A stretch of DNA of 64,000 nucleotides from Ferruginibacter sp. HRS2-29 (GTDB lineage Bacteria > Bacteroidota > Bacteroidia > Chitinophagales > Chitinophagaceae), in NCBI RefSeq assembly GCF_024343615.1, contig NZ_RJUB01000015.1, forward strand, positions 1 through 64,000, given 5' to 3'. Positions 2,638-49,474 of this stretch are shown here, one piece after another. Each line of letters starts with the position of its first letter. The stretch's first letter is position 1. Under the pieces are notes generated by a model, which did no database searches, had not been told where the DNA came from, and saw only the letters and a program-made list of their open reading frames with translations. A program made the translations under genes and the position numbers.

Positions 2638-3762
2638 ATGAAGTATTACATCATAGCCGGTGAAGCAAGCGGAGACCTGCACGGCAGCAACCTCATCAAG
2701 GAATTACACCGCCGGGATCCGGCAGCGGATATCCGTTGCTGGGGCGGCGATAAAATGCAGACTGCCGGGGCTACGCTGGTGAAACACTACCGCGACCTGG
2801 CTTTCATGGGTTTCACCGAAGTGATCAAAAATCTTCCGACCATTTTTCGCAATCTTTCTTTTTGCAAAAAAGATATCCTAGCCTATCAGCCGGATGCGTT
2901 GATACTGATCGATTACCCGGGGTTCAATCTGCGCATTGCAAAATGGGCGAAACAACAGGGATTGAAGATCATCTATTACATTTCGCCACAGGTGTGGGCA
3001 TGGAAAGAAAACCGCGTGAACGGCATTAAAAAGAATGTTGACAAAATGCTGGTGATACTCCCATTTGAAAAAGATTTTTACAAAAAATGGAAATACGAAG
3101 TAGAATATGTTGGTCACCCGCTGGTAGAAGTGATCGATGAATTCATTGAAACACATGAGCATTCCGATCTTCCGCTTATGCAAAAAAATGCAGGCACCAT
3201 AGCGTTATTGCCCGGCAGCAGGCAACAGGAGATATTAAAGAAGTTGCCCATCATGCTGCAGGTGGCCGAACATTTTCCTGACTATAGTTTTGTGGTGGCC
3301 AAAGCACCCGGCCTGGAAGATGATTTTTACAACGGGTTGCTCAGGCCTTATAAAAATGTATATGCTGTTGTGGGTAAAACCTACGACCTTCTATATCGCT
3401 CGAAAGCCGCACTGGTAACCAGTGGTACGGCTACGCTGGAAACTGCGTTGTTTGCCGTTCCGGAAGTGATCTGTTACAAAGGGAATAGCATTTCTTACGA
3501 GATCGCGAAGCGCCTGATCAAGATAAAATTCATCGGGCTGGTAAACCTCATCATGGATAAAGAAGTGGTAAAAGAGCTGATACAACACGAACTGACGGTA
3601 GAAAACCTCACTAAAGAATTGCAGGTATTGTTGCACGATACCGACCGCAAGATGACTTTGCAAAAAGATTATGCAGCACTCAAAAAATTATTGGGCGCCG
3701 GCGGGCATGCATCTTCCAATGCAGCTAAAAGCATTGTTACCTTCCTGCGGAACACCCCTTAA
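2638..3762 (+). CDS. lpxB: Lipid-A-disaccharide synthase
   Basis: Condenses UDP-2,3-diacylglucosamine with lipid X to give the disaccharide core of lipid A (glycosyltransferase family 19), acting at the inner membrane. The N-terminus MKYYIIAGEASGDLHGSNL is the family signature. Further landmarks are YYISPQVWAWKENRV, the LLPGSRQQEI loop of the nucleotide-sugar domain, and TSGTATLETALF. The 374-residue length is normal. The frame extends upstream to a GTG at 2572 inside an inverted repeat, but homology begins at the ATG at 2638, directly after a TAnnTTTG promoter. Its stop overlaps by 4 bp the stop of the small gene on the other strand. Confidence 0.95.
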   Translation: MKYYIIAGEASGDLHGSNLIKELHRRDPAADIRCWGGDKMQTAGATLVKHYRDLAFMGFTEVIKNLPTIFRNLSFCKKDILAYQPDALILIDYPGFNLRIAKWAKQQGLKIIYYISPQVWAWKENRVNGIKKNVDKMLVILPFEKDFYKKWKYEVEYVGHPLVEVIDEFIETHEHSDLPLMQKNAGTIALLPGSRQQEILKKLPIMLQVAEHFPDYSFVVAKAPGLEDDFYNGLLRPYKNVYAVVGKTYDLLYRSKAALVTSGTATLETALFAVPEVICYKGNSISYEIAKRLIKIKFIGLVNLIMDKEVVKELIQHELTVENLTKELQVLLHDTDRKMTLQKDYAALKKLLGAGGHASSNAAKSIVTFLRNTP

Positions 3763-3926
3763 TGCTTACGGAAAAGCCTAATGGCCAAAACGATCATGGC
3801 GAAAATAAACAGGAAAATAGATATCCTGTTGATGCCATGCATATATCTGGTAAACTTGCTGTTGTCGGCACCCGGATCTTTTTTCTTCAGATAAAGATAT
3901 TCCGCTACCTGTTTTAATATTCCCAT
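3759..3926 (-). CDS. Small single-pass membrane protein (DUF6728-like)
   Basis: A 55-residue product: a short basic N-terminus (MGILKQVAEYLYLKKKDP), then RYMHGINRISIFLFIFAM leading into one transmembrane helix and ending RLFRKH. It resembles a small family conserved next to envelope genes in Bacteroidota; I believe DUF6728, but from memory only. The ATG at 3926 was preferred over one eleven codons upstream because a TATTTTTG promoter element ends 4 bp before it, making the mRNA leaderless or nearly so. It converges on lpxB with a 4-bp overlap of stops. Function unknown. Confidence 0.65.
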   Translation of the reverse strand: MGILKQVAEYLYLKKKDPGADNSKFTRYMHGINRISIFLFIFAMIVLAIRLFRKH

Positions 3927-3930
3927 AAAA

Positions 3931-3938
3931 CAAAAATA
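3931..3938 (-). promoter_or_regulatory. TAnnTTTG promoter element for the small membrane protein
   Basis: Minus-strand TATTTTTG ends 4 bp before the chosen ATG. With initiation about 5-7 bases downstream of this element, the transcript would begin at or next to the start codon. Confidence 0.45.
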
Positions 3939-4072
3939 GTTCAAAAGTTGAAGGTTCAAAGTTTTTCGATCCGAGACGTTTTAACTAAAACGACGTATTT
4001 ACAAACTGTAAGTACCCTTTGAACCTTCAACTTTCAACCTTCAACTTTGAACTTTTTAAACTTTTAAACTAT
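3939..4072. repeat. Dispersed inverted repeat, GTTCAAAAG family, copy A
   Basis: The left arm begins GTTCAAAAGTTGAAGGTTC. The right arm reads CTTTGAACCTTCAACTTT and then iterates. The centre has its own small hairpin, CGTTTT-AACT-AAAACG. Copies B-E lie at 21243, 39427, 49334 and 51078. It occupies the gap before the guanine deaminase gene. Confidence 0.85.
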
Positions 4073-4080
4073 CTTCGGGT

Positions 4081-4554
4081 ATGACCAGGGAAGAAAAATT
4101 TATGCTGGAAGCGATCGGGTTATCGCAACAGGGAATCGATAATAATGATGGCGGCCCGTTTGGCTGTGTGATCGTGAAAGACGACAAGATCATTGGCCGC
4201 GGCAATAACAAAGTTACTTCTACCAACGATCCTACCGCTCATGCTGAAGTAGTAGCGATCCGGGATGCCTGTAAAAATCTGGGCACGTTTCAGCTTGATG
4301 GCTGCGAAGTATATACTTCCTGCGAACCATGCCCGATGTGCCTTGGCGCAATTTACTGGGCACGCCCTTCGGTGATTTATTATGCCAACAATCGTGAAGA
4401 TGCGGCCGATATCGGCTTCGATGACTCGATGATCTATGAAGAAATGAAAGCATCCATCAACGAAAGAAGAATCCCCATCATTTCCCTGAGCAGGGAAACT
4501 GCCCTTGCGGTTTTCAATAAATGGAAAACAAAATCTGATAAGACCAGTTACTGA
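4081..4554 (+). CDS. guaD: Guanine deaminase (CDA superfamily)
   Basis: Zinc enzyme converting guanine to xanthine, the entry step to the neighbouring purine catabolic operon. The 157-residue product has both cytidine-deaminase-superfamily zinc motifs: HAEVVAIRDAC and TSCEPCPMCLGAIYWA. The C-terminal WKTKSDKTSY resembles GuaD of Bacillus subtilis, which favours guanine deaminase over tRNA adenosine or cytosine deaminases. A TATCTTCG element, one base off TAnnTTTG, sits 3 bp before the ATG at 4081. Its 3' end overlaps that of convergent xdhC by 7 bp. Substrate choice is supported strongly by context. Confidence 0.9.
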   Translation: MTREEKFMLEAIGLSQQGIDNNDGGPFGCVIVKDDKIIGRGNNKVTSTNDPTAHAEVVAIRDACKNLGTFQLDGCEVYTSCEPCPMCLGAIYWARPSVIYYANNREDAADIGFDDSMIYEEMKASINERRIPIISLSRETALAVFNKWKTKSDKTSY

Positions 4555-5489
4555 TCCTTATTTTTTTCAAGAATGATCTCTGCAGCTATGCTCACCGCAA
4601 TCTCAGCCGGCGTCTGGCTTTTGATGGGTATGCCTATCGGTGAATGGATAGTTGAAACGATTTCCGGAGGATAACCAGAAAATAATTTGTTCACTTTATA
4701 CTTGCTGCCCAGAAGACCAATATACCGGAAATGTTTGTCCTGTAAGGCTTTCAGAGCTATATCATCTGTGCGGTATCCGAATGTCATGATCACCACGTAA
4801 ATATTTTTCCCGGAATGGATCAATTGGCGAAGCGATTCATAGCCTGCCACCACATGTTTTTCATGGGCATATATATTCGCCTCCATCGTATTCAGATCAC
4901 TACGTTCATCATACAGGTGAATGTAAAAATCCATATCACGCATCAGCTTTGCAAGCGACAATGCGCAATGCCCGCCGCCGATAATGTGCAGTGTATTTTT
5001 ATATCCTGTTCTTTCAACTAACGTAAATGCCTGCTCGCTTTTCGGTTCAAAGCAGAAATCACCCGGAGGTATTTCATCAGAAAACCTGATCCCTTCTTCA
5101 GTCAGGTGAAGAGTGCCTTGTTCATTTTTTTCCAGTGATGACAACAGGGAATTTATGGCAGCCATATCTTTATCCTGCATGGGATAAAGGAAAATAGTTT
5201 GCTCTCCGGAACAGATCATCCCGCTTTGATTTTTGCCTGCCGATTTATCGTGTATCTGCCGGTAAACAGCAGCAGCCATGCCTTTTTCAGCCAGCCGGGC
5301 TTTAGCCATTTCCACAAACTTGTGTTCCATCATTCCCCCGCCGATCGAGCCGCAGAAGTCACCATCTGAAGCCACAGCCATTTTGAAACCCTGCCGCCCA
5401 GGCGAACTTCCCAGGCTATGCAGCACATACAGCAAAACAACATTTGTTTTTGCCTGGTATTTTTGCGCTATGAATTGCCACACTTCCAT
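4548..5489 (-). CDS. xdhC: XdhC/CoxI family xanthine dehydrogenase maturation factor
   Basis: XdhC-type proteins bind molybdenum cofactor, help its sulfuration and insert it into xanthine dehydrogenase. The 313-residue product has the N-terminal XdhC/CoxI domain with GSSPGRQGFKMAV and GSIGGGMMEHKF, then a C-terminal Rossmann-like domain (HIIGGGHCALSLAKLM; GLLGSKYKVNKL). It is the last gene of the minus-strand purine operon, 14 bp after the CitE-like gene, separated from the enzyme subunits xdhA and xdhB by five genes. It cannot be confused with the catalytic subunits. Confidence 0.9.
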   Translation of the reverse strand: MEVWQFIAQKYQAKTNVVLLYVLHSLGSSPGRQGFKMAVASDGDFCGSIGGGMMEHKFVEMAKARLAEKGMAAAVYRQIHDKSAGKNQSGMICSGEQTIFLYPMQDKDMAAINSLLSSLEKNEQGTLHLTEEGIRFSDEIPPGDFCFEPKSEQAFTLVERTGYKNTLHIIGGGHCALSLAKLMRDMDFYIHLYDERSDLNTMEANIYAHEKHVVAGYESLRQLIHSGKNIYVVIMTFGYRTDDIALKALQDKHFRYIGLLGSKYKVNKLFSGYPPEIVSTIHSPIGIPIKSQTPAEIAVSIAAEIILEKNKDQ

Positions 5490-5503
5490 TCCTCAAATTA
5501 TAA

Positions 5504-6928
5504 TTATGCTTTCCTGTTTTCCAGGATTTTTTTGAATGAACGGCCACGAATCTCTTCCAATGTAAGTCCCGTCACCAGCACTTCTTCTTCGGTGATGGCG
5601 CCGCTGTTGAGGGCCCGCAAAAAATAATTCAACAATCCTTGCCCGGTTGCGGCATCATCAAATACATCGCCAATCAGCGTAGCGCGGGCAGCTTTTTCTA
5701 CAAATGTTTTTAATCGCTCTACCGCATCATCATAACTTTCCAGGAAGAACGCGAATACAGCAGCATATCGCATCGGGAATTGCGCCGGGTTAAGATCCCA
5801 GCCCTGGTAAAAGCCATTCCACAACGAATGACGGATATGCTCGTAACCCTTGCGCCACGCCCTGTGCACAGTTTCCCTGTTTTCTTTCAATTGCTCCTCA
5901 GTCATATCATCGCCGCGATGCGGGCCGATAGGCATCGTATTCGTAGCGCCATCACTCAGCCAGATGCCGGTATGCGCCAACGCTACTTTTGTCATGTGAT
6001 GCGCAAAGTCGCACACGGGGTGATCCATCTCCTGGTATTTAGCGGTAATGCTGCAGGAAGCAGTATAATCGTATGTTCCAAAATGCGTGGCAATGCATCG
6101 CCCTTTGCTCGCCTTCATAAAGCGGTACAACGGGTTTCGGCCATCCGCATCCATGATGGATTGCGTGGTTTCCACCATCATTTCCATTTTTAAAACACCC
6201 ACCGCCAGGTTGAGTTCTTCTTCCAGTATCTCAAAAAAATCCACGAGCGTTGCCACCTGTTCCGGGATGGTAACTTTTGGCAACATTACAATGAAATTTT
6301 CCGGCAGTATACCGCCGGTTTCTTTAACCAGTGTGCTGATAAATATATCCAGCGTACGCAAACCACGCTCTTTCATTTCTTCTGTGAACGGCTTGATGCG
6401 TATGCCGATAAATGGAGGCAAAGATTTTTTCTTCAATCCTTTCGCTACTTCTTTCGCGGCGCTTTCAGCGGTCGCGTCTTCTTCTTCATTGCTGCGGTTT
6501 CCATAACCATCTTCAAAATCGATACGGAAATCTTCCACCGCTTCAGATTTCAGTTTCGCTATAACTTTTTTATACACCTGGTAAGAAAGGTGGGCCGGAT
6601 GTTTTTTCTTTTCTTCCGCAGAAAGTTTTTCGTACTCCTCCGCTACTTTAGCAGCAGCACTTTCCTGATCGACCGCTTCAATACCTTCCAGCCGGAAAAC
6701 TTTTCCGAAACTTAAAAAATCAGGTGCATAGGTATCGAACGTCTCCAAAGCCCTGGCCCCTAAAGTTTTTGCAGCATCATGCTTAAAAAGATTAGCGCCA
6801 CCGTACACTGTATGTACGGCCTGTCTTTCGGGCCTGTCTCCGGGATATATTTTTTGAAAAGCCGTATTGGCTTCTTTCAGTTTTTCAAATATTTTCTTTC
6901 TCTTTTTTGAAGGAATTGATGTGCTCAT
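5504..6928 (-). CDS. HpcH/HpaI (CitE/malate-synthase-like) aldolase family protein
   Basis: A 474-residue soluble protein of TIM-barrel type. Visible motifs are EDFRIDFEDGYGNRSNEE, like the metal-binding DxEDG region of HpcH/CitE enzymes, then IGIRIKPF, VMLPKVT, and LKMEMMVETTQSIM containing the expected metal-binding Glu. The fold is therefore clear; the reaction is not. Uncharacterised DUF6986-type relatives exist that I cannot place more precisely. It lies between the uraD/uraH fusion and xdhC, after the hairpin array. A role in using glyoxylate or another two-carbon product of ureide breakdown is an attractive inference from position only. The first 25 residues are rich in lysine. Confidence 0.72.
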   Translation of the reverse strand: MSTSIPSKKRKKIFEKLKEANTAFQKIYPGDRPERQAVHTVYGGANLFKHDAAKTLGARALETFDTYAPDFLSFGKVFRLEGIEAVDQESAAAKVAEEYEKLSAEEKKKHPAHLSYQVYKKVIAKLKSEAVEDFRIDFEDGYGNRSNEEEDATAESAAKEVAKGLKKKSLPPFIGIRIKPFTEEMKERGLRTLDIFISTLVKETGGILPENFIVMLPKVTIPEQVATLVDFFEILEEELNLAVGVLKMEMMVETTQSIMDADGRNPLYRFMKASKGRCIATHFGTYDYTASCSITAKYQEMDHPVCDFAHHMTKVALAHTGIWLSDGATNTMPIGPHRGDDMTEEQLKENRETVHRAWRKGYEHIRHSLWNGFYQGWDLNPAQFPMRYAAVFAFFLESYDDAVERLKTFVEKAARATLIGDVFDDAATGQGLLNYFLRALNSGAITEEEVLVTGLTLEEIRGRSFKKILENRKA

Positions 6929-6960
6929 ATTATTTTTTTAGTGTCATCTTTTGTTACAAA

Positions 6961-7294
6961 CGCTCCGGGGTTGGGGGAAACCCCGGAGGTTTCTTTTAAC
7001 CTCCGGGTGTTTGGTCTAACCCCGGAGCTTTCTTTTAACCTCCGGGCGTTTGGTCTAACCCCGGAGGTTTTACTTTAACTCCGGGTGTTTGGTTTAACCC
7101 CGGATGTTTTACTTTAACCTCCGGGCGTTTGGTCTAACCCCGGAGGTTTTCTTTCACCTCCGGTGTTTGGTCTAACACCGGAGGTTTTACTTCAACCTCC
7201 GGGCGTTTGGTCTAACCCCGGAGGTTTTACTTTAACTCCGGGTGTTTGGTCTAACCCCGGAGCTTTCTTTTAACCTCCGGGCGTTTGGCCTAAA
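6961..7294. repeat. Minisatellite: eight 39-bp units with alternating hairpins
   Basis: This is the whole 377-bp gap between the uraD/uraH fusion and the aldolase gene, and I see no gene in it. Units begin at 6981, 7020, 7059, 7098, 7138, 7176, 7216 and 7255 (spacing 38-40 bp). Each contains CCGGAGGTT, a 7-nt A/T-rich loop, AACCTCCGG, then a GTTTGGTCTAA linker. Arms can also pair across the linker (CCTCCGG... with ...CCGGAGG). A related perfect 10-bp-arm hairpin (6963-6972 with 6979-6988) precedes the array. The last unit ends 12 bp from the uraD/uraH stop codon. Base composition is far richer in G+C than the flanking A/T-rich spacers. Confidence 0.95.
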
Positions 7295-7305
7295 ACCATG
7301 CCGGG

Positions 7306-8172
7306 TCAACTTCCACGATATGTCGAATATCCGTAAGGGTTGATCAATAATGGTATGTGGTAATGTGCTTCGTCCGGCACGGTGAAAAAGACTTCCACTT
7401 CCGGATAAAATCCTTTGATATTATTTGCCCTGAAATAATTAAATGTTTCAAATACCATTTTATAATTCCCCGGCACTACATACTTTTCTGCCGGAAGAAA
7501 ATCACCTACACGGCCATCCGCATTGGTAACGCCTTGCGCCAATGTGTACCAGGTATTGTTTACAAAATGTTTCAACCGAACAGTCATATTTTTTCCAGGT
7601 ACACCAAGCGATGTATCCAACACATGCGAAGTCAGTTGGCTCCCGTTCACTTTTGTCCAGTCTGCCGCAGGGATCACTTTTTTAAACCGCTGTATAGTTA
7701 TTTTCAATTGTTCGCCCATGGCGATGATAAGTTCCTCTTCATAATTATTGCTGCTCCTGTCCTGCAGGATACGCAACATTTCGGGGGCAGTTTTCCCGTT
7801 GGCAAAAACAATAAATATGAAACCGAATTTAGCTTCATACAGATCATTCGCTTTCGACAGCTGTTCGATCACATCCTCGGAAGCAGCATCTACACCAGAT
7901 TGCTCCGAACCTGCAAGGTGTTTTGTAGAAGGAAATTTTTCTGCAATACTTTTTGTATCACCGATCTTCGGGTGTTGCGAAAAAGCTTCCAGCCAATCCT
8001 GCCGCGAACAGCCATGATACCATATCTCCCCGGCAGAACGCACCAGTTCTTTTTCCGATTCAAAGGGAAACCTTGTCATGATCAGCGATTGCCAGGCACC
8101 CGATCCGCAGGTAGTTGCCAGCAACTCGTGTGCCTGATGTTTTTCCAGTTTGTTGAATTCCTGTAATGTCAT
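7306..8172 (-). CDS. UraD-UraH fusion: OHCU decarboxylase / 5-hydroxyisourate hydrolase
   Basis: One 288-residue protein carries the two steps after urate oxidation. Residues 1 to about 165 are OHCU decarboxylase, with the catalytic HPKIGDTKS motif, SEQSGVD and the helix KFGFIFIVFANGK. Residues from about 178 are a transthyretin-like 5-hydroxyisourate hydrolase, with LTSHVLDTSLG, DGRVGDFL and the diagnostic C-terminus YHIPLLINPYGYSTYRGS. The order decarboxylase-hydrolase matches plant allantoin synthase, so (S)-allantoin would be delivered without release of unstable intermediates. It starts 4 bp after puuD stops and is followed by the hairpin array. Both halves look complete. Confidence 0.95.
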   Translation of the reverse strand: MTLQEFNKLEKHQAHELLATTCGSGAWQSLIMTRFPFESEKELVRSAGEIWYHGCSRQDWLEAFSQHPKIGDTKSIAEKFPSTKHLAGSEQSGVDAASEDVIEQLSKANDLYEAKFGFIFIVFANGKTAPEMLRILQDRSSNNYEEELIIAMGEQLKITIQRFKKVIPAADWTKVNGSQLTSHVLDTSLGVPGKNMTVRLKHFVNNTWYTLAQGVTNADGRVGDFLPAEKYVVPGNYKMVFETFNYFRANNIKGFYPEVEVFFTVPDEAHYHIPLLINPYGYSTYRGS

Positions 8173-8176
8173 AATC

Positions 8177-9595
8177 TTATTTTAATGATGCCCCCTGGTC
8201 TATCCAGCAGCGTATAAGTTCACGTTCCTTTTCGGTCATGTTTGTTTTGTTATTCTGCGGCATGCTCTTCGTAAGGACCACACGCTGCATGATCTTGTCC
8301 TTCAGTTTCACAATATTATCCGGCGTATCGTATGTTATTCCATTGGGCGGCGCTGTATAAAAATCGTCTGTCGGGCTCGCGGAGTGACAACTGATGCAGC
8401 GTTGCTGTATGATCGCATTTACTTCCGCGAAGCTAACTACAGACTTACATTCGCCGGGTTTTTGCGGAGCAGAAATATAAGCAGCCGATAAAAGGATAAG
8501 GATGGAAACAGGCAATACCCAAACCGACAATTGCCCTTTCTCTTTGATGTTAAGATAATGTTTTACCCCCGCTGCTCCCAACGAAATGATAGCAAGTATC
8601 ACCCAAGGATACTCGAAACCGAATGTAGAGGGAAAATGGTTACTGATCATTACAAATAATACCGGCAGGGTAAAATAGTTATTGTGCAATGAGCGCAAAC
8701 CCGCATTCTTACCCAGTTTGGGATCAAGGGGTTTATTTTCAGCAGCGGCTTTTACCATAGCTTTCTGCGCGGGAATGATCACAAAAAAAACATTGGCCAC
8801 CATGATAGAACCAAGCATCGCACCAAAATGCATATATGCAGCACGTGCGCTGAATACATGGCAATAAAAATAAGCGAAGCCGGTACAGATGATAAATCCT
8901 GTGAGCGCAAACCAGATACCTTTTTGTACAAGCGATGTTTTGCAGATAAGATCGTACAATATCCAGGCTACCACAAAAGAACCAACACCGATCGATAGTC
9001 CCGCCAGCGGCGAAATATCCAGTACATTCTTATCGATCAACAAGGCTTTCGCATTAAAATAATACACTACAAATAATAAACAAAAACCTGAAAGCCACGT
9101 GAAATACGCTTCGTATTTGAACCAATGCAAATGTTTGGGAATTGTTTTGGGAGCAACTTTATATTTTTCCAGGTAATAAAAACCACCGCCATGTACCGCC
9201 CACAGATTACCTGCAAGTTCTTCGCGTACATCTTTTGTCCGGTTCAATGCATTCTCTAAAAACACAAAATAGAACGATGCGCCAATCCACGCGATACCAA
9301 ATGTGATGTGCATCAGTCGTATCACAATATTCATCCATTCCATCAGGTGCCCTTCCCAGATAGTGCCTTTAACGATGAGGTATAACGATACTACCATACA
9401 TACCGACGTTAGCACGATAGCAGTGTACACAAAAGTTTGAGCCGTTACTACATCTCTTACTTTGACAGTTGCGGGAGCATCTTCCCCGTCTTCGTCCTGC
9501 ACCTCCTGTTTGTCTACGGCACGCAGATAGTAGGTCATGATAACCAGCATGACCAACACAATAAATAATATGGATAATAAAACGTACCCGCTCAT
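8177..9595 (-). CDS. puuD: Membrane-bound urate hydroxylase PuuD with cytochrome c domain
   Basis: Oxidises urate to 5-hydroxyisourate at the inner membrane and passes electrons to a c-type haem rather than making hydrogen peroxide as soluble uricase does. The 472-residue product has about eight hydrophobic helices (the DUF989 region) and a C-terminal cytochrome c domain with the haem-binding motif CISCH near residue 395 and a likely Met ligand in VVLTKSMPQNN. It lies 2 bp after allantoicase and 4 bp before the uraD/uraH fusion, in pathway company. It needs cytochrome c maturation, encoded elsewhere. No soluble uricase gene is in the window. Confidence 0.93.
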   Translation of the reverse strand: MSGYVLLSILFIVLVMLVIMTYYLRAVDKQEVQDEDGEDAPATVKVRDVVTAQTFVYTAIVLTSVCMVVSLYLIVKGTIWEGHLMEWMNIVIRLMHITFGIAWIGASFYFVFLENALNRTKDVREELAGNLWAVHGGGFYYLEKYKVAPKTIPKHLHWFKYEAYFTWLSGFCLLFVVYYFNAKALLIDKNVLDISPLAGLSIGVGSFVVAWILYDLICKTSLVQKGIWFALTGFIICTGFAYFYCHVFSARAAYMHFGAMLGSIMVANVFFVIIPAQKAMVKAAAENKPLDPKLGKNAGLRSLHNNYFTLPVLFVMISNHFPSTFGFEYPWVILAIISLGAAGVKHYLNIKEKGQLSVWVLPVSILILLSAAYISAPQKPGECKSVVSFAEVNAIIQQRCISCHSASPTDDFYTAPPNGITYDTPDNIVKLKDKIMQRVVLTKSMPQNNKTNMTEKERELIRCWIDQGASLK

Positions 9596-9597
9596 AG

Positions 9598-10608
9598 TTA
9601 TGCTTTTTTGCCAAATAACCTCAGCCTGCTTACACCTCCATCGGGAAAAATATTCAATCGCACATGCGAAAAAATTTCTTTATTGCTGATATCAAATTCA
9701 TGTTCGGCATCCGCACCCAATTTTTGCGAAGGCAAGATCGTCTGCCATGCTACTTCATCATTGATCACTTTAGAATCCTCTTCCGCGTAGCAGGCTTCGA
9801 TGGTACAACTATCAGGATAATTGCCTTTGAAATGACCCGTATCCACCAAAGCTTTCTCTATTGTTCCTTTCGTAGCCAGCTTCACGATCACCCAATCCCT
9901 GTTGCCGGGAGTCCGGTTGCGCTTGGTTTCCCAGCCATCGCCCATGTTGGCGCCACGATTAGGCATGATAAGATTTCCCATATGACTGAAGAACATATCG
10001 TTGCAGGCGATGGAAACAGCACCATTGATGGCGGCAGCCAGATCTATCGTTTCATCGTTACCGGTAGTATCCCAGTTTTTGAAAATTTCTCCGTAAACCC
10101 TGAACCTCGCTACACCGCCATCAGGATAAATATGCAGACGGACATGTGTAAAAATTTCACTGCTGATACTTTCGTAAAAATTCTGACTGCCTGCATCGAG
10201 AGGTGATTTCGGCAATATTTCTTTCCATGGCACTGCTTCCCAATCGGTAACCTCTTCGCTGAGGTAAGCCGCTTCCACAGAAGCATGTGGCGGATGATTG
10301 CCAAGGAAAAAATTCGTATCAATATCAAAACCTTTTATACGGCCCGGCGCAGCCAATTGAATAACTGCCCAATCATGTCCCGGAGTACGTTTGCGCCTGC
10401 TTTCCCACCCATCCATCCATTTTCCCCGATCGGTATATTTATCGGTGATAAAGATCCCGCGACCTTGCAGGATAAGATTCTCTTTCTCCGCGAAAAAATC
10501 ATCCGTTGCATATAATACCTTTCCACCAAGTCTTGCCGCCGCAAGATCATTGAGCGCCGCAAAAGCAGGAGGGTTTTTAATTATTTCTTTTACTTTTTCA
10601 AAAGCCAT
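9598..10608 (-). CDS. alc: Allantoicase
   Basis: Hydrolyses allantoate to ureidoglycolate and urea. The 336-residue product consists of two homologous beta-sandwich repeats. The first has GRGIFITDKYTDRGKWMDGW and RRKRTPGHDWAVIQL; the second has RGANMGDGWETKRNRTPG and RDWVIVKL. This two-repeat arrangement is characteristic of allantoicase and excludes allantoate amidohydrolase. The 5' end overlaps the end of allantoinase by 19 bp and puuD begins 2 bp after its stop, so these genes are cotranscribed and probably translationally coupled. A ureidoglycolate lyase was not found nearby. Confidence 0.95.
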   Translation of the reverse strand: MAFEKVKEIIKNPPAFAALNDLAAARLGGKVLYATDDFFAEKENLILQGRGIFITDKYTDRGKWMDGWESRRKRTPGHDWAVIQLAAPGRIKGFDIDTNFFLGNHPPHASVEAAYLSEEVTDWEAVPWKEILPKSPLDAGSQNFYESISSEIFTHVRLHIYPDGGVARFRVYGEIFKNWDTTGNDETIDLAAAINGAVSIACNDMFFSHMGNLIMPNRGANMGDGWETKRNRTPGNRDWVIVKLATKGTIEKALVDTGHFKGNYPDSCTIEACYAEEDSKVINDEVAWQTILPSQKLGADAEHEFDISNKEIFSHVRLNIFPDGGVSRLRLFGKKA

Positions 10609-20163: not shown

Positions 20164-21243
20164 ATGGAAAAGAAATTATTGCTTTTACTCTTCTCTTTCG
20201 CTTGCGTGTTTCCTTCATTTTCGCAGCAGGGAAATGTCATCCTCATCACCATGGATGGAATGCGTTGGCAGGAAATTTTTACCGGTGCCGACACTTCATT
20301 GTTGAACAGCAAAAAATTTACTTCGCAGGATTCTTTAACTCTTGTAAAAAAATATGCACAGCCTGATGCCAACGACCGGCGAAAAATGCTCATGCCTTTT
20401 CTCTGGAACACGATCGCAAAAGATGGCCAGATCTATGGCAACCGTAAGTACAATAATTTTGTGAATGTCAAAAACCGCTACTGGTTCAGTTATCCCGGTT
20501 ACAATGAAATATTTACCGGCTACCCGGATACGTTAGTCAACAGCAATAAGTTTCCCGCGAACTACAATGAAAATATTCTTGAGTTTATCAACAAGCAACC
20601 GGCGTATAAAAACAAAGTAGCTTCTTTCGGAAGCTGGGATGCGTTCAGGCGGATATTGAATAAAGAGCGCAGCGGAATTTATATCAATGATGGATTTGAT
20701 GATGTTCCTGCGGATAAAAGTTCGCCGGCTATGGATGTGCTTAATAAAGCCCAACATTTATTACCCGCTATTTATGGCTCCGAAGAAAGGCTGGATGCCA
20801 TGACAGGCCTGATGGCGCTGGAATACATGAAACTGAAACATCCGAAAGTGTTGCATATTTCACTCGGCGAAACGGATGAATTTGCACATGAAGGAAAATA
20901 TGATTATTACCTGGAAGCGGCGCAGCACAATGATGCGATCATCCGGCTGATCTGGGAACAAGTACAATCGGATCCATTTTATAAAAATAATACGACGTTG
21001 CTGCTAACTACAGATCATGGCCGCGGGCTCAACGATCTCTGGACAAGCCACTGGAGCGATGTACCCAACAGCAATGAGATATGGTTTGCAGTAATAGGAA
21101 AAAATATTGCAGCAAAAGGAGAAATGAAAAATGAAGGACAATTATACCAGCAGCAATTTGCGCAAACTATTGCGTACTTAACAGGAATAGAGTTTAAAAC
21201 GAACCATCCGGTTGGAGAGAAGATATCGATACTCTTTAAATAG
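20164..21243 (+). CDS. Exported alkaline-phosphatase-superfamily protein
   Basis: The 359-residue product begins with a clear signal peptide (MEKKLLLLLFSFACVFPSFSQ), after which the mature part opens with VILITMDGMRWQEIFTGAD. This supplies the first metal-binding Asp and the nucleophile Thr of the phosphodiesterase/phosphatase superfamily. Later metal ligands are seen in GETDEFAHEGKYDYY and LLLTTDHGRG. It may be a periplasmic phosphodiesterase, phosphatase or sulfatase; the motif set cannot decide. The frame extends upstream to 20035, inside the thioredoxin gene, but the ATG at 20164 gives the signal peptide. A dispersed inverted repeat follows the stop. Confidence 0.8.
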   Translation: MEKKLLLLLFSFACVFPSFSQQGNVILITMDGMRWQEIFTGADTSLLNSKKFTSQDSLTLVKKYAQPDANDRRKMLMPFLWNTIAKDGQIYGNRKYNNFVNVKNRYWFSYPGYNEIFTGYPDTLVNSNKFPANYNENILEFINKQPAYKNKVASFGSWDAFRRILNKERSGIYINDGFDDVPADKSSPAMDVLNKAQHLLPAIYGSEERLDAMTGLMALEYMKLKHPKVLHISLGETDEFAHEGKYDYYLEAAQHNDAIIRLIWEQVQSDPFYKNNTTLLLTTDHGRGLNDLWTSHWSDVPNSNEIWFAVIGKNIAAKGEMKNEGQLYQQQFAQTIAYLTGIEFKTNHPVGEKISILFK

Positions 21244-21344
21244 TTCAAAAGGTTCAAAAGTTCAAGAGGTTCAAAAAGTTGAAATGCATTCAGTTAGAAT
21301 GTCAACCTTTTGAACCTCTTGAACTTTTGAACCTTTTGAACTTT
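21243..21344. repeat. Dispersed inverted repeat, GTTCAAAAG family, copy B
   Basis: Left arm of repeated GTTCAAAAG/GTTCAAGAG words, centre GAAATGCATTCAGTTAGAATG, right arm of the complementary CTTTTGAAC/CTCTTGAAC words. The centre is the reverse complement, with few changes, of the centre of copy C at 39427. It fills the gap between the phosphatase and citrate synthase stops and may end both transcripts. Confidence 0.9.
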
Positions 21345-28254: not shown

Positions 28255-28337
28255 AATTACGAATTATCAATTACGAATTACGAATTATCTTCTCAACGGG
28301 AACTACATTCGTAATTCGTAATTGATAATTCGTAATT
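28255..28337. repeat. Perfect 31-bp inverted repeat between rplO and rpmD
   Basis: Arms 28255-28285 and 28307-28337 are exact reverse complements, built from AATTACGAATT words, with a 21-nt loop. The stem is A/T-rich. It occupies nearly the whole spacer between two cotranscribed ribosomal genes. Confidence 0.95.
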
Positions 28338-28341
28338 GCTT

Positions 28342-38570: not shown

Positions 38571-39428
38571 ATGAAAAAATACCTCCCGCTGATATGCATT
38601 GCACTGATGCCTTATCTTGCTCATTCTCAACGCCTTCACGCCGATCTGCAACTGGGTGTGGCCAATTACCAGGGCGATCTGCAAACCAAAGGATATACTT
38701 TCAAAGGAGCGAAACCAGCCGTCGGGCTCGGACTTTCCTACGATATAAACGACCATGTTGTTCTACGCGGAATGGCAAGTTTTATGTCGCTCCGTGGCGA
38801 TGATAAGGATAAGGAAGGTGTCATCAACCCCCGAAACCTCAATTTCAAGTCGCGGATATGGGAGGCCCAGCTCGGACTCGAATACAATATTTTCGATATA
38901 CAGGAAAAAAGTTTCACCCCTTATCTTTTTGCTAGCGTAGCGGCTTTCCATTTCAACCCCTATTCGTACGATACTTCCGGAAACAAGGTCTTCCTGCGGA
39001 CGCTCGGCACCGAAGGGCAGGGCCTGGCTGCCTATCCTGAAAAGAAATTATATAAGAATAACCAGCTGGCGATCCCTTTTGGCGGCGGTATAAAATTCGC
39101 TTTCACCGAAAACCTGCAGGTAGGTATCGAAGTGGGCCTCAGGAAGTTATTTACCGATTACCTGGATGATGTGAGCGGCACTTATGCCGATTCTACCCTG
39201 TTGCTGGCTGGGCGTGGCCCGCAAGCCGTAGCATTTGCTTACCGCGAAAGCGAGATACATGGCGCATCATCCTACCCCGCTGCCGGAGCGGTGAGGGGCA
39301 ATCCCGATAAAAAAGACTGGTATTACGTTACCGGCCTCCGTATCAGCTATCGCCTGGGTGCAGGCGGCGGAGGTGGTGGCAGGGGCGGCGGAAAGAACAA
39401 GCTGGGCTGCCCTAAGCCGGTTTATTAG
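38571..39428 (+). CDS. Outer-membrane beta-barrel protein (DUF6089/PorG-like)
   Basis: The 285-residue product has a signal peptide (MKKYLPLICIALMPYLAHSQ) and then alternating hydrophobic strands: LHADLQLGVANYQGDL, AVGLGLSYDINDHVVLRGMA, IWEAQLGLEYNIFD, LQVGIEVGLRKLFTDYLDD. The pattern matches small barrels of the DUF6089 group, related to the T9SS accessory protein PorG. A T9SS role is only a possibility. The C-terminus is odd: a run of glycines (AGGGGGGRGGGK) before KLGCPKPVY, rather than a terminal aromatic strand. It is divergent from rpsJ. Confidence 0.72.
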   Translation: MKKYLPLICIALMPYLAHSQRLHADLQLGVANYQGDLQTKGYTFKGAKPAVGLGLSYDINDHVVLRGMASFMSLRGDDKDKEGVINPRNLNFKSRIWEAQLGLEYNIFDIQEKSFTPYLFASVAAFHFNPYSYDTSGNKVFLRTLGTEGQGLAAYPEKKLYKNNQLAIPFGGGIKFAFTENLQVGIEVGLRKLFTDYLDDVSGTYADSTLLLAGRGPQAVAFAYRESEIHGASSYPAAGAVRGNPDKKDWYYVTGLRISYRLGAGGGGGGRGGGKNKLGCPKPVY

Positions 39429-39529
39429 AAGTTAAAAAGGTTTAAAAGTTCAAGAGGTTCAAAAAGTTGACATTCTATCGGAATGCATTTCAACCTTTTG
39501 AACCTCTTGAACTTTTGAACTTTTGAATT
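39427..39529. repeat. Dispersed inverted repeat, GTTCAAAAG family, copy C
   Basis: Centre TTGACATTCTATCGGAATGC is the reverse complement type of copy B, so this copy is inverted relative to B. It fills the gap between two convergent genes and runs into a CTTAATTCTTAATTTTTAATT stretch that supplies the stop codon of the GIN-domain gene. Confidence 0.9.
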
Positions 39530-39544
39530 CTTAATTCTTAATTT

Positions 39545-40246
39545 TTAATTTTCTTTACTTACACTTCCCCCACTGCTTTCCTGTTTCTTCACTACTGCTG
39601 CCGCACCTTTGTAATCAATATCGCTGCCGCTGCTGGCATTGGCTTCGATGGATACGCTGGCAAAAACGTCGATGCTGGAACCACTGCTGGCTTCCGCTAC
39701 AGTATTTTCGCTCAGCAATTCGAATGCTTTGATAGTAGAAGCGCTGGAGCTGTTGGCATTTACATTGCGGGTGCGTCCCGATACTTTTATTTCGGAAGCA
39801 CTGCTGGCTTCCATGTGCACTTCCGGCGCTTCTACCGAAGTGGTGATGCTCGCCGCACTGGAAGCATCCAGCGAAACAGTGCCTGAACTTACAAGTGGAT
39901 CCTTTACTTCCACGGAAGCCGCGGACGAAGCCTTGATGGAACTGATATCATTCGCCGTAACAAAAACCCTGATGTGTACATCGTGCAGGCTGGTATGATC
40001 CTTTATGCCTATTTTCAATGTACCATTTTCCACTTCCGTTTCGATGAATTCCATCAGGTTGTCATCCGCTTCCACGGTAACGGATCCTGGACCTTTACGA
40101 AGTTCTACTTCGATGCCTGAACTAACACTCAGTTTGGTAAATCCGGTTGCAGAGCGTTTTTGGGTGATCACATGGCCACTCCCGCTTTCACTGTCGCAAC
40201 TGCTGAAAAGCACGCCTGCGGCAATAATGATTAATAATTTTTTCAT
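39545..40246 (-). CDS. Head-GIN domain (DUF2807) lipoprotein
   Basis: The 233-residue product starts with a lipoprotein signal (MKKLLIIIAAGVLFSSC; Cys17). The rest is a repetitive Ser/Ala-rich beta-helix: FTKLSVSSGIEVELRKGPG, then repeats of the ASSAASIEV type such as IKASSAASVEVKDP, LDASSAASITTSV and MEASSASEIKVSG. This is the DUF2807 pattern, common in Bacteroidota and of unknown function, probably a cell-surface or periplasmic scaffold. Its stop codon lies inside an A/T-rich repeat. A TATCTTTG promoter element lies 24-31 bp upstream. Confidence 0.82.
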   Translation of the reverse strand: MKKLLIIIAAGVLFSSCDSESGSGHVITQKRSATGFTKLSVSSGIEVELRKGPGSVTVEADDNLMEFIETEVENGTLKIGIKDHTSLHDVHIRVFVTANDISSIKASSAASVEVKDPLVSSGTVSLDASSAASITTSVEAPEVHMEASSASEIKVSGRTRNVNANSSSASTIKAFELLSENTVAEASSGSSIDVFASVSIEANASSGSDIDYKGAAAVVKKQESSGGSVSKEN

Positions 40247-40282: not shown

Positions 40283-40318
40283 AAGAATTAAAAATCAAGA
40301 ATTAAAAATCAAGAATTC
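40283..40318. repeat. AAGAATTAAAAATC direct repeats
   Basis: About two and a half copies of a 14-bp unit, the reverse complement of the unit at 33571. It belongs to the A/T-rich TTAATTTTTAATTC family. Confidence 0.75.
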
Positions 40319-40331
40319 CTAAACTACTCCT

Positions 40332-40405
40332 GCTGTCAGCCTGAGCTTGTCGAAGGCAAATCCATACCAATTTTATTTCACCTTCGACAAGCTCAGGCTG
40401 ACAGC
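40332..40405. repeat. Perfect 25-bp inverted repeat (CCTGAGCTTGTCGAAGG type)
   Basis: Arms 40332-40356 and 40381-40405 are exact reverse complements around a 24-nt A/T-rich loop. The core is TCAGCCTGAGCTTGTCGAAG. The element is G/C-richer than its surroundings. It lies between two divergent promoters (DUF2807 gene and guaA). I recall similar sequences as dispersed repeats in many bacteria. Confidence 0.95.
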
Positions 40406-40469
40406 CGTTTTCAAGATCAAACTTACAGTTGTAACATTCATTCTTAATTTTTAATTCTTAATTATTAAT

Positions 40470-40477
40470 TAGATTTG
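40470..40477 (+). promoter_or_regulatory. TAnnTTTG promoter element for guaA
   Basis: TAGATTTG ends 6 bp before the guaA ATG, so transcription would start at or within a base or two of the start codon: a leaderless or nearly leaderless mRNA. It is at the edge of a TTAATTATTAATT repeat. Confidence 0.5.
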
Positions 40478-49333: not shown

Positions 49334-49474
49334 TTAGAAGTTCAGAAGGTTCAAAAGGTTCAAGAGGTTCAAAAGGTTGCCGGACCTCCTGAGACTTTTA
49401 AAAACTCTGAACTTTTGAACTTTTGAACTTTTGAACTTTTGAACTTTTGAACCTCTTAAACCTTTTGAACTTTT
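49334..49474. repeat. Dispersed inverted repeat, GTTCAAAAG family, copy D, with GAACTTTT tandem array
   Basis: The left arm has GTTCAAAAGGTTCAAGAGG words. The right arm includes five exact tandem copies of GAACTTTT (49409-49448), then CCTCTT and CCTTTTGAAC. It lies between the divergent dapD and glycosyltransferase genes and holds at least one of their promoters. Confidence 0.9.

Follow-up and report, generated by a model that had tools for sequence, protein, structure and literature searches.

The closest published description of the RAYT and repeat reported here, among the texts compared, is that of TnpAREP subclass 2.6 (Bertels group 5). According to the text consulted, this subclass is found mostly in Bacteroidetes with a median protein length of 179 aa, and its genes lie between 'atypical secondary structures' that recur in other places of the genome and were found by manual inspection (PMC6006769, 2018). 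Better described are the GTAG- and CGTC-tagged REPs, which are portrayed, in the part of the text compared, as dispersed palindromes of 20-40 bp located mostly downstream of coding regions, between both unidirectional and convergent genes. They form tandem BIME-like clusters, and some are intragenic (PMC3733652, 2013). The TnpAREP of E. coli cuts single-stranded REP, and by the account compared its activity is lost when a regular stem is restored (PMC8266576, 2021).

Our window, the whole stretch of 64,000 nucleotides analysed from Ferruginibacter sp. HRS2-29, contains a palindromic array inside a purine operon. We consider it probable, at about 0.82, that this array is a REP/BIME-like tandem cluster of a palindromic repeat family belonging to a RAYT gene of the same genome (G000:C125:96374-96994). 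The best reading is that the array is of an atypical Bacteroidota RAYT type, adjoins a stop codon and was locally amplified. The features of the locus are as follows.

4548 to 5489, minus strand: xdhC (PF13478, PF02625)
5504 to 6928, minus strand: DUF6986 protein, the next gene of the operon (PF22484 at 606.7 bits; PF03328 at 22.9 bits against a cut-off of 25)
6959 to 7293, no strand assigned: whole palindromic array, one leading arm and then eight arm-loop-arm units
6959 to 6972, plus strand: leading arm AACGCTCCGGGGTT, whose partner is the first arm of unit 1
6979 to 7017, plus strand: unit 1, right arm with a bulged T
7018 to 7056, plus strand: unit 2, left arm GAGCTT unmatched by its own right arm; close to unit 8
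7057 to 7095, plus strand: unit 3, one C missing from the right arm; 97% identical to unit 7
7096 to 7135, plus strand: unit 4, left arm GATGTT unmatched by its own right arm
7136 to 7173, plus strand: unit 5, right arm CCTCCGGTGTT, the perfect partner of the left arm of unit 6
7174 to 7213, plus strand: unit 6, left arm AACACCGGAGG
7214 to 7252, plus strand: unit 7, tandem unit
7253 to 7293, plus strand: unit 8, ending 12 bp off the uraD/uraH 3' end
7306 to 8172, minus strand: uraD/uraH fusion (OHCU decarboxylase and HIUase/transthyretin; PF09349 and PF00576 above cut-off), whose stop codon the array adjoins
8177 to 9595, minus strand: urate oxidase, upstream in the operon (PF06181)

Tandem Repeats Finder (TRF) delimited the array to 6979-7293, with a period of 39, 8.1 copies and a score of 440; a period of 157 scored 514. 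The units start at 6979, 7018, 7057, 7096, 7136, 7174, 7214 and 7253 with the letters AACCCCGG or AACACCGG, and are 38-41 bp long depending on the cuts used. Both the reading of the sequence and TRF thus bear out the unit starts given in a preliminary description of this DNA, each shifted by -2 bases, and the distance of 12 bp from the uraD/uraH stop was also correct (array end 7293, ORF 7306-8172). The TGGTCT linker is near-identical from unit to unit, and the loops resemble one another; with the cut used, units 2 and 8 are 93% identical. The covariance model R2, which these same units helped to build, matched 8 of 8 window units at 43.0 to 57.2 bits. A hairpin with 10-bp arms, described earlier as preceding the array, is real (6963-6988, 10 pairs, loop of 6), but its right arm doubles as the first arm of unit 1. 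The arm type of the leading arm also precedes the hairpin in other copies of the repeat, for example at loci L004 and L014. The gene neighbours had been named correctly, except that the putative aldolase is the DUF6986 protein, in which the HpcH/HpaI match falls below the cut-off.

The window holds other short arrays as well. At 21243-21344, two tandem arrays of GTTCAAAAG-like units of 8-9 bp face each other as the arms of an inverted repeat whose loop measures about 20 bases, and a similar arrangement of facing GTTCAAAAG and TGAACTTT unit arrays lies at 49340-49474. More short-unit arrays are found at 39425-39552, 28255-28338 and 40283-40471.

The repeat family is dispersed in its own genome. 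Searching the genome with the array by blastn gave 69 matches, including the array itself and matches on the reverse strand. A covariance model of a 38-position hairpin, made from 60 aligned units, found at least 145 matches on 32 contigs with both strands counted, a lower bound because 150 of the 4949 candidates were scored. We examined 66 sites in this genome, so that the hairpin occurs at 65 sites besides the window; hits at L040 and L042, apparently a single site split by a contig break, were left out of this number. The other sites carry single hairpins or arrays with a period of roughly 41 to 70 bp, and the eight-unit array of the window is the longest among the 66. The basic element can be written as AAACCCCGGAGGTTT - loop - AACCTCCGGG(c/t/a)GTTT, in which the right arm usually has one bulged base. 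Counted by regular expression, one extra base is present in the right arm of 51 of the 60 aligned units (35 C, 9 T and 7 A), with two cases ambiguous by eye, at window position 7134 (counted) and at L036:5751 (uncounted). With a palindromic unit and many dispersed copies, the repeat fits a REP/BIME element in the broad sense. The GT[AG]G tetranucleotide is absent from the 5' foot of the hairpin in the 60-unit alignment, where the foot consensus is AAAAC and the other end is GTTTG. Membership of the canonical GTAG REPs is ruled out by this missing tetranucleotide. Apparently the same copy of the repeat lies, in opposite orientation, at two contig ends (L040 1-75 and L042 1-75); the repeat therefore seems to break the assembly. 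At L052 (4112-5239) the element lies within a called ORF, which may be a truncated gene.

Units of the family stand on both sides of the RAYT (TnpAREP) gene of contig C125, which encodes a protein of 207 aa. In the extracted locus (L034) the gene, at about 6375-6998, lies between repeat copies at 6064-6280 and 7048-7293. The N-H-x-H and Y-x-x-x-N columns, corresponding to the HUH and tyrosine motifs, are invariant in 20 of 20 aligned homologues. The HUH motif of the protein itself reads N-H-F-H (NH[LIV]H in subclass 2.6), the middle residue being F, V or T in the others, and its tyrosine motif reads YVHKNA, where the alignment consensus is YIHxNP and the subclass 2.6 motif is YIH[QN]NP. The NCBIfam model REP_Tyr_transpos (NF047646) matches all 20 aligned members, and it matches the RAYT of C125 at 55 bits and E 8e-15 (52.1 bits when the genome was searched), short of the curated cut-off of 80. 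Pfam gave no match for this protein, and Y1_Tnp matches 4 of the 20 homologues at E 0.01. The only sequence match in the PDB at E 1 was TnpAREP 4er8 (E 8e-6). An AlphaFold model of the homologue at L176 (pLDDT 93.7) aligned with 4er8 over 150 residues at Z 16.1 and rmsd 2.4 A, with a Foldseek E of 1.6e-9 for 4er8 and a Z of 9.2 for the next-best entry. By way of this homologue's model, the RAYT is predicted to have a Y1 HUH fold like that of 4er8. The earlier suggestion that the array might bind a protein has thereby gained a likely candidate, namely the RAYT encoded between copies of the array's own repeat.

The genome contains nine RAYT/Y1 genes (L054-L057, L031-L033, L328 and L329), eight matched by NF047646 and one more by Y1_Tnp. 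In seven of the nine, the two 700-bp flanks share a word of at least 14 bp, different for each gene, and two have none; no control set accompanies this count. Seven exact word patterns taken from the other RAYT repeat families of this genome are all absent from the window. The RAYT gene of L056 is flanked by direct repeats of the GTTGACTACCCGGA type, about 16 bp long and with no clear hairpin (1370-1430 and 2201-2340).

The association of RAYT genes with flanking repeats extends to other genomes. A word of at least 14 bp was common to both flanks at 19 of 32 RAYT loci (33 loci without L079, which has short flanks), as against 0 of 23 uraDH control loci (from 24) and 8 of 326 mismatched flank pairs. 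Among the best 80 of at least 390 RAYT relatives, such a word was shared at 40 of 79 loci, L241 being set aside for its short flanks, compared with 1 of 69 for distant flanks, where 11 of the 80 were omitted for the same reason. Mismatched pairs of this larger set gave 43 of 1000, many of them with shared family motifs. The two sets overlap in five loci, and the wider trimming used in the larger one dropped words seen in the smaller (L058/L178 and L060/L182). No shared 14-bp word was present at 13 of the 32 and 39 of the 79 loci. Many of the shared words have the form AAACCTnnnAGGTTT, and the three closest RAYT homologues found (50, 44 and 43% identical) carry AAACCTATAAGGTTT or a near copy of it on both sides. 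A sister TATA palindrome (ACCTATAAGGTTT.., the AAACCTATAAGGTTT pattern) is present in 19 of 195 genomes of the family. RAYT genes (at 1e-20) were found in 9 of these 19 genomes and in 36 of the 176 lacking the palindrome (p = 0.013), which leaves 10 of the 19 without a RAYT at that threshold. With a cut at five or more copies, chosen post hoc, the figures were 5 of 5 genomes versus 40 of 190 others (p = 5e-4). For the CCGGAGG model the same 195 genomes showed no association with RAYT, which occurs in 4 of the 24 genomes that the model matches and in 41 of the 171 that it does not (p = 0.86); matches of the model outside the own genome are mostly weak. By these results, RAYT and repeat are linked in general, but not in every case.

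Copies of the repeat also lie in frame inside four tandem sensor histidine kinases on contig C13 (L038 = G000:C13:38000-54656, 2718-9847). The insert occupies the loop between an NLLTNAFYAVN-type (YAVN) motif and the YEPTV strand. This loop is 55-67 residues long in 4 of 4 of these kinases, for which paralogues were sought at E 1e-40 and four found, as against 31-42 residues in the relatives, where 19 of 26 loci match the motif and the other 7 are left out of the comparison. No such stretch is present in the kinase loop at those 19 loci. In all six pairs of the four kinases, the DNA of the inserts is more alike (0.75-0.89) than that upstream (0.68-0.74) or downstream (0.60-0.67), the excess being narrow in two pairs (0.75 and 0.76 versus 0.74). 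Since the inserts are more alike than their flanks, they may have been inserted or homogenised after gene duplication, or may be under some other constraint. Of all the signs that the element behaves as an insertion, the kinase inserts are the clearest.

The preliminary description had drawn attention to two pairing registers in the array, one across a TTACTTT-like loop and one across the TGGTCT loop, and both indeed exist. The transcribed strand folds to -180.2 kcal/mol with a z of -12.0, which 0 of 100 shuffles equal. The consensus arm AAACCCCGGAGGTTT, however, is identical to its own reverse complement at 12 of 15 positions, so that every arm can pair with either neighbour, and two registers are to be expected on that account. 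Among the arm duplexes of the window array, those formed within a unit have a mean of -16.6 kcal/mol, those spanning the TGGTCT loop one of -18.5 and the other combinations one of -17.1. When partners were shuffled, the TGGTCT-loop register beat them at 0.029 (one-sided, two registers tried), while the TTACTTT-loop register was no better than shuffled partners (1.0). The stem across TGGTCT is thus mildly favoured, and the preference is weak because two registers were tried on one array. The pair of arms singled out earlier as a compensatory change is present as described: CCTCCGGTGTT (7157-7167) and AACACCGGAGG (7174-7184) form a duplex of -21.9 kcal/mol, compared with -17.0 and -16.9 for the within-unit partners of the same arms.

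Perfect arms could also be produced by template switching during replication (quasi-palindrome correction). That this process, and not selection on an RNA, generated the co-changed arms is a tentative explanation to which we give somewhat less than even odds, and it is compatible with the REP/BIME-like reading. It agrees with the finding that only 1 of 7 neighbouring arm pairs has co-changed to a perfect stem, and with the nearly self-complementary arms, but its outcome is inseparable from that of selection with one array.

The placement of the repeat bears on whether the array was retained for a function at the end of the gene. By a crude home-made gene caller, 59 of the 66 sites are intergenic, 5 lie inside ORFs and 2 at contig edges. 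The intergenic sites comprise 40 co-directional, 13 convergent and 6 divergent gaps; convergent gaps thus hold 13 of the 59 sites, while 29 of all 198 gaps are convergent. Of 58 intergenic sites, 37 have a stop codon no more than 25 bp away, L036 7769-8048 being excluded from the distance table as a gene was called over it. In co-directional gaps, 26 of 39 sites are within 25 bp of a stop, versus 11.9 expected from random placement within the same gaps. At 12 bp from the uraDH stop, the window array therefore occupies the usual position for its family.

REPs of E. coli have been described as protectors of 3' ends or dampeners of read-through. The array could likewise be a copy of a mobile repeat that was domesticated, kept for protecting the 3' end of uraDH or for dampening read-through. 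The proximity to stop codons, the share of convergent gaps and the very stable fold speak for such a role, which we nevertheless regard as doubtful. Counter-selection elsewhere can yield the same location, and the transcribed strand has no terminator-like site: a search for intrinsic terminators in 6850-7400 found none on the transcribed minus strand and 6 (1.9 expected) that were all on the plus strand.

The preliminary description proposed a dedicated cis-acting RNA, in which two stem sets would switch and tune expression of DUF6986 and xdhC relative to uraDH. Besides the strong fold, the one co-changed arm pair and the TGGTCT-loop result, two covariation measures are in its favour. In 56 distinct units from the whole genome, tested with 500 shuffles, 93.6% of the cells of the alignment pair. 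Six two-sided cells were reached by 8 of 500 shuffles and the covariation score by 19 of 500, but the 2 pairs with two-sided changes were reached by 232 of 500 and the 7 further pair types by 435 of 500. Four of the six two-sided cells represent one shared change in the single array L036, and the covariation tool warns that relatedness alone can yield such an excess. RNAalifold kept 5 pairs, of which 0 changed on both sides. Covariation as proof of an RNA structure was rejected on these mixed measures, and the evidence for the maintained second stem that had been proposed is weak and mixed.

A conserved cis-regulatory RNA would need to be present at the same operon junction in relatives. We looked at 93 genomes of the genus including the own one, of which 32 had a uraDH match and 30 loci were taken in. 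The junction set leaves out L106, which ends before DUF6986, and L112-L116, which have separate uraD and uraH matches; in L111, the uraDH reading contains internal stop codons. At 23 of 23 congeneric uraDH-DUF6986 junctions the array is missing, and the spacers there are 9-137 bp long compared with 377 bp in the window. The repeat of the RAYT flanks matched 2 of the 93 genomes at E 0.001, its own and one with a 31-bp match that by eye is not the palindrome. We found no close strains with and without the array. In two other species, the uraDH-DUF6986 spacers (L095 and L101) contain by eye unrelated palindromic sequences, as if the site tolerates such elements. Rfam 15 gave 3 matches at E 1 or below in window positions 5400-9000, all far below gathering.

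These results, with the repeat at 65 other sites and registers that follow from self-similar arms, make the switching RNA very unlikely, and the idea of an element dedicated to this operon is not supported. Near relatives that lack the array while having identical operon expression had been named as an argument against function; since relatives of the same gene order lack the array, half of this is what we observe. The expectation that copy number would vary is supported by other array lengths at other sites and by the lack of an array in the 23 congeners. Least probable of all is a plain minisatellite made by replication slippage with no tie to a transposase, as slippage agrees with the linker and loops common to the units and with the high identities of units 3 and 7 and units 2 and 8, and explains growth, but not the dispersal of single copies or their presence on both sides of the RAYT gene.

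Because the repeat is scattered over the genome and flanks a RAYT gene, the array is most likely a product of a mobile repeat and not a dedicated RNA switch. In the REP/BIME-like reading, the RAYT of C125 would cut and re-join a single-stranded hairpin, seeding a copy after the uraDH stop. The eight-unit array would then have grown by local duplication, which we infer from the linker and loops that its units share. The two registers would be a consequence of near self-complementary arms, and any effect on the polycistronic mRNA, such as a 3' shield or pausing, a possible by-product. It is also conceivable, if rather improbable, that the unit recognised by this Bacteroidota RAYT type is a single near self-complementary arm (AAACCnnnnnGGTTT) and not a fixed hairpin. 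If so, any two neighbouring arms would constitute an element, the transposase could grow or trim arrays arm-wise or unit-wise, and in-frame insertion in exposed loops could edit proteins, as in the four kinases.

What looked like an RNA switch can thus be read as belonging to a class that has been little described, namely REP-like repeats of Bacteroidota RAYTs. The kinase copies and the nine RAYT/Y1 genes offer concrete substrates and insertion sites for studying whether these domesticated transposases still move DNA, and by what means. A literature search covering the top-ranked matches, including those to the repeats' own letters, found no paper on these repeats, subscription papers, figures and supplements being outside its scope. 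Nested-palindrome arms and kinase insertions are likewise details not found in the published text compared, figures and supplements aside.

The system is like the REPtrons of subclass 2.6, as far as their published text describes them, in pairing an HUH and tyrosine protein with flanking repeats that have copies elsewhere (PMC6006769). Beyond that text, the repeat is here spelled out and counted, with AAACC...GGTTT arms, an eight-unit array and kinase copies; overlap with the structures noted there is possible. To the tagged REPs, as described in the text compared, it is similar in palindrome size, dispersal, 3' placement, tandem clusters and some intragenic copies, but it has no GTAG or CGTC, and instead an AAAC/GTTT foot and a stem in which about 14 pairs are interrupted by one bulge (PMC3733652). 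Like the y and z REPs of E. coli in the account compared, it is an imperfect palindrome with a bulge, here in 51 of 60 units; those REPs have a two-base mismatch bulge and a GTAG foot, whereas here the bulge is a single C, T or A and GTAG is lacking (PMC8266576). The in-frame copies recall, by their description in the same text as the tagged REPs, the Rickettsia palindromic elements (RPE), which are in-frame palindromes in protein genes (PMC3733652). The hosts of RPE are Rickettsia, whereas here a RAYT-linked repeat lies in the loops of histidine kinases.
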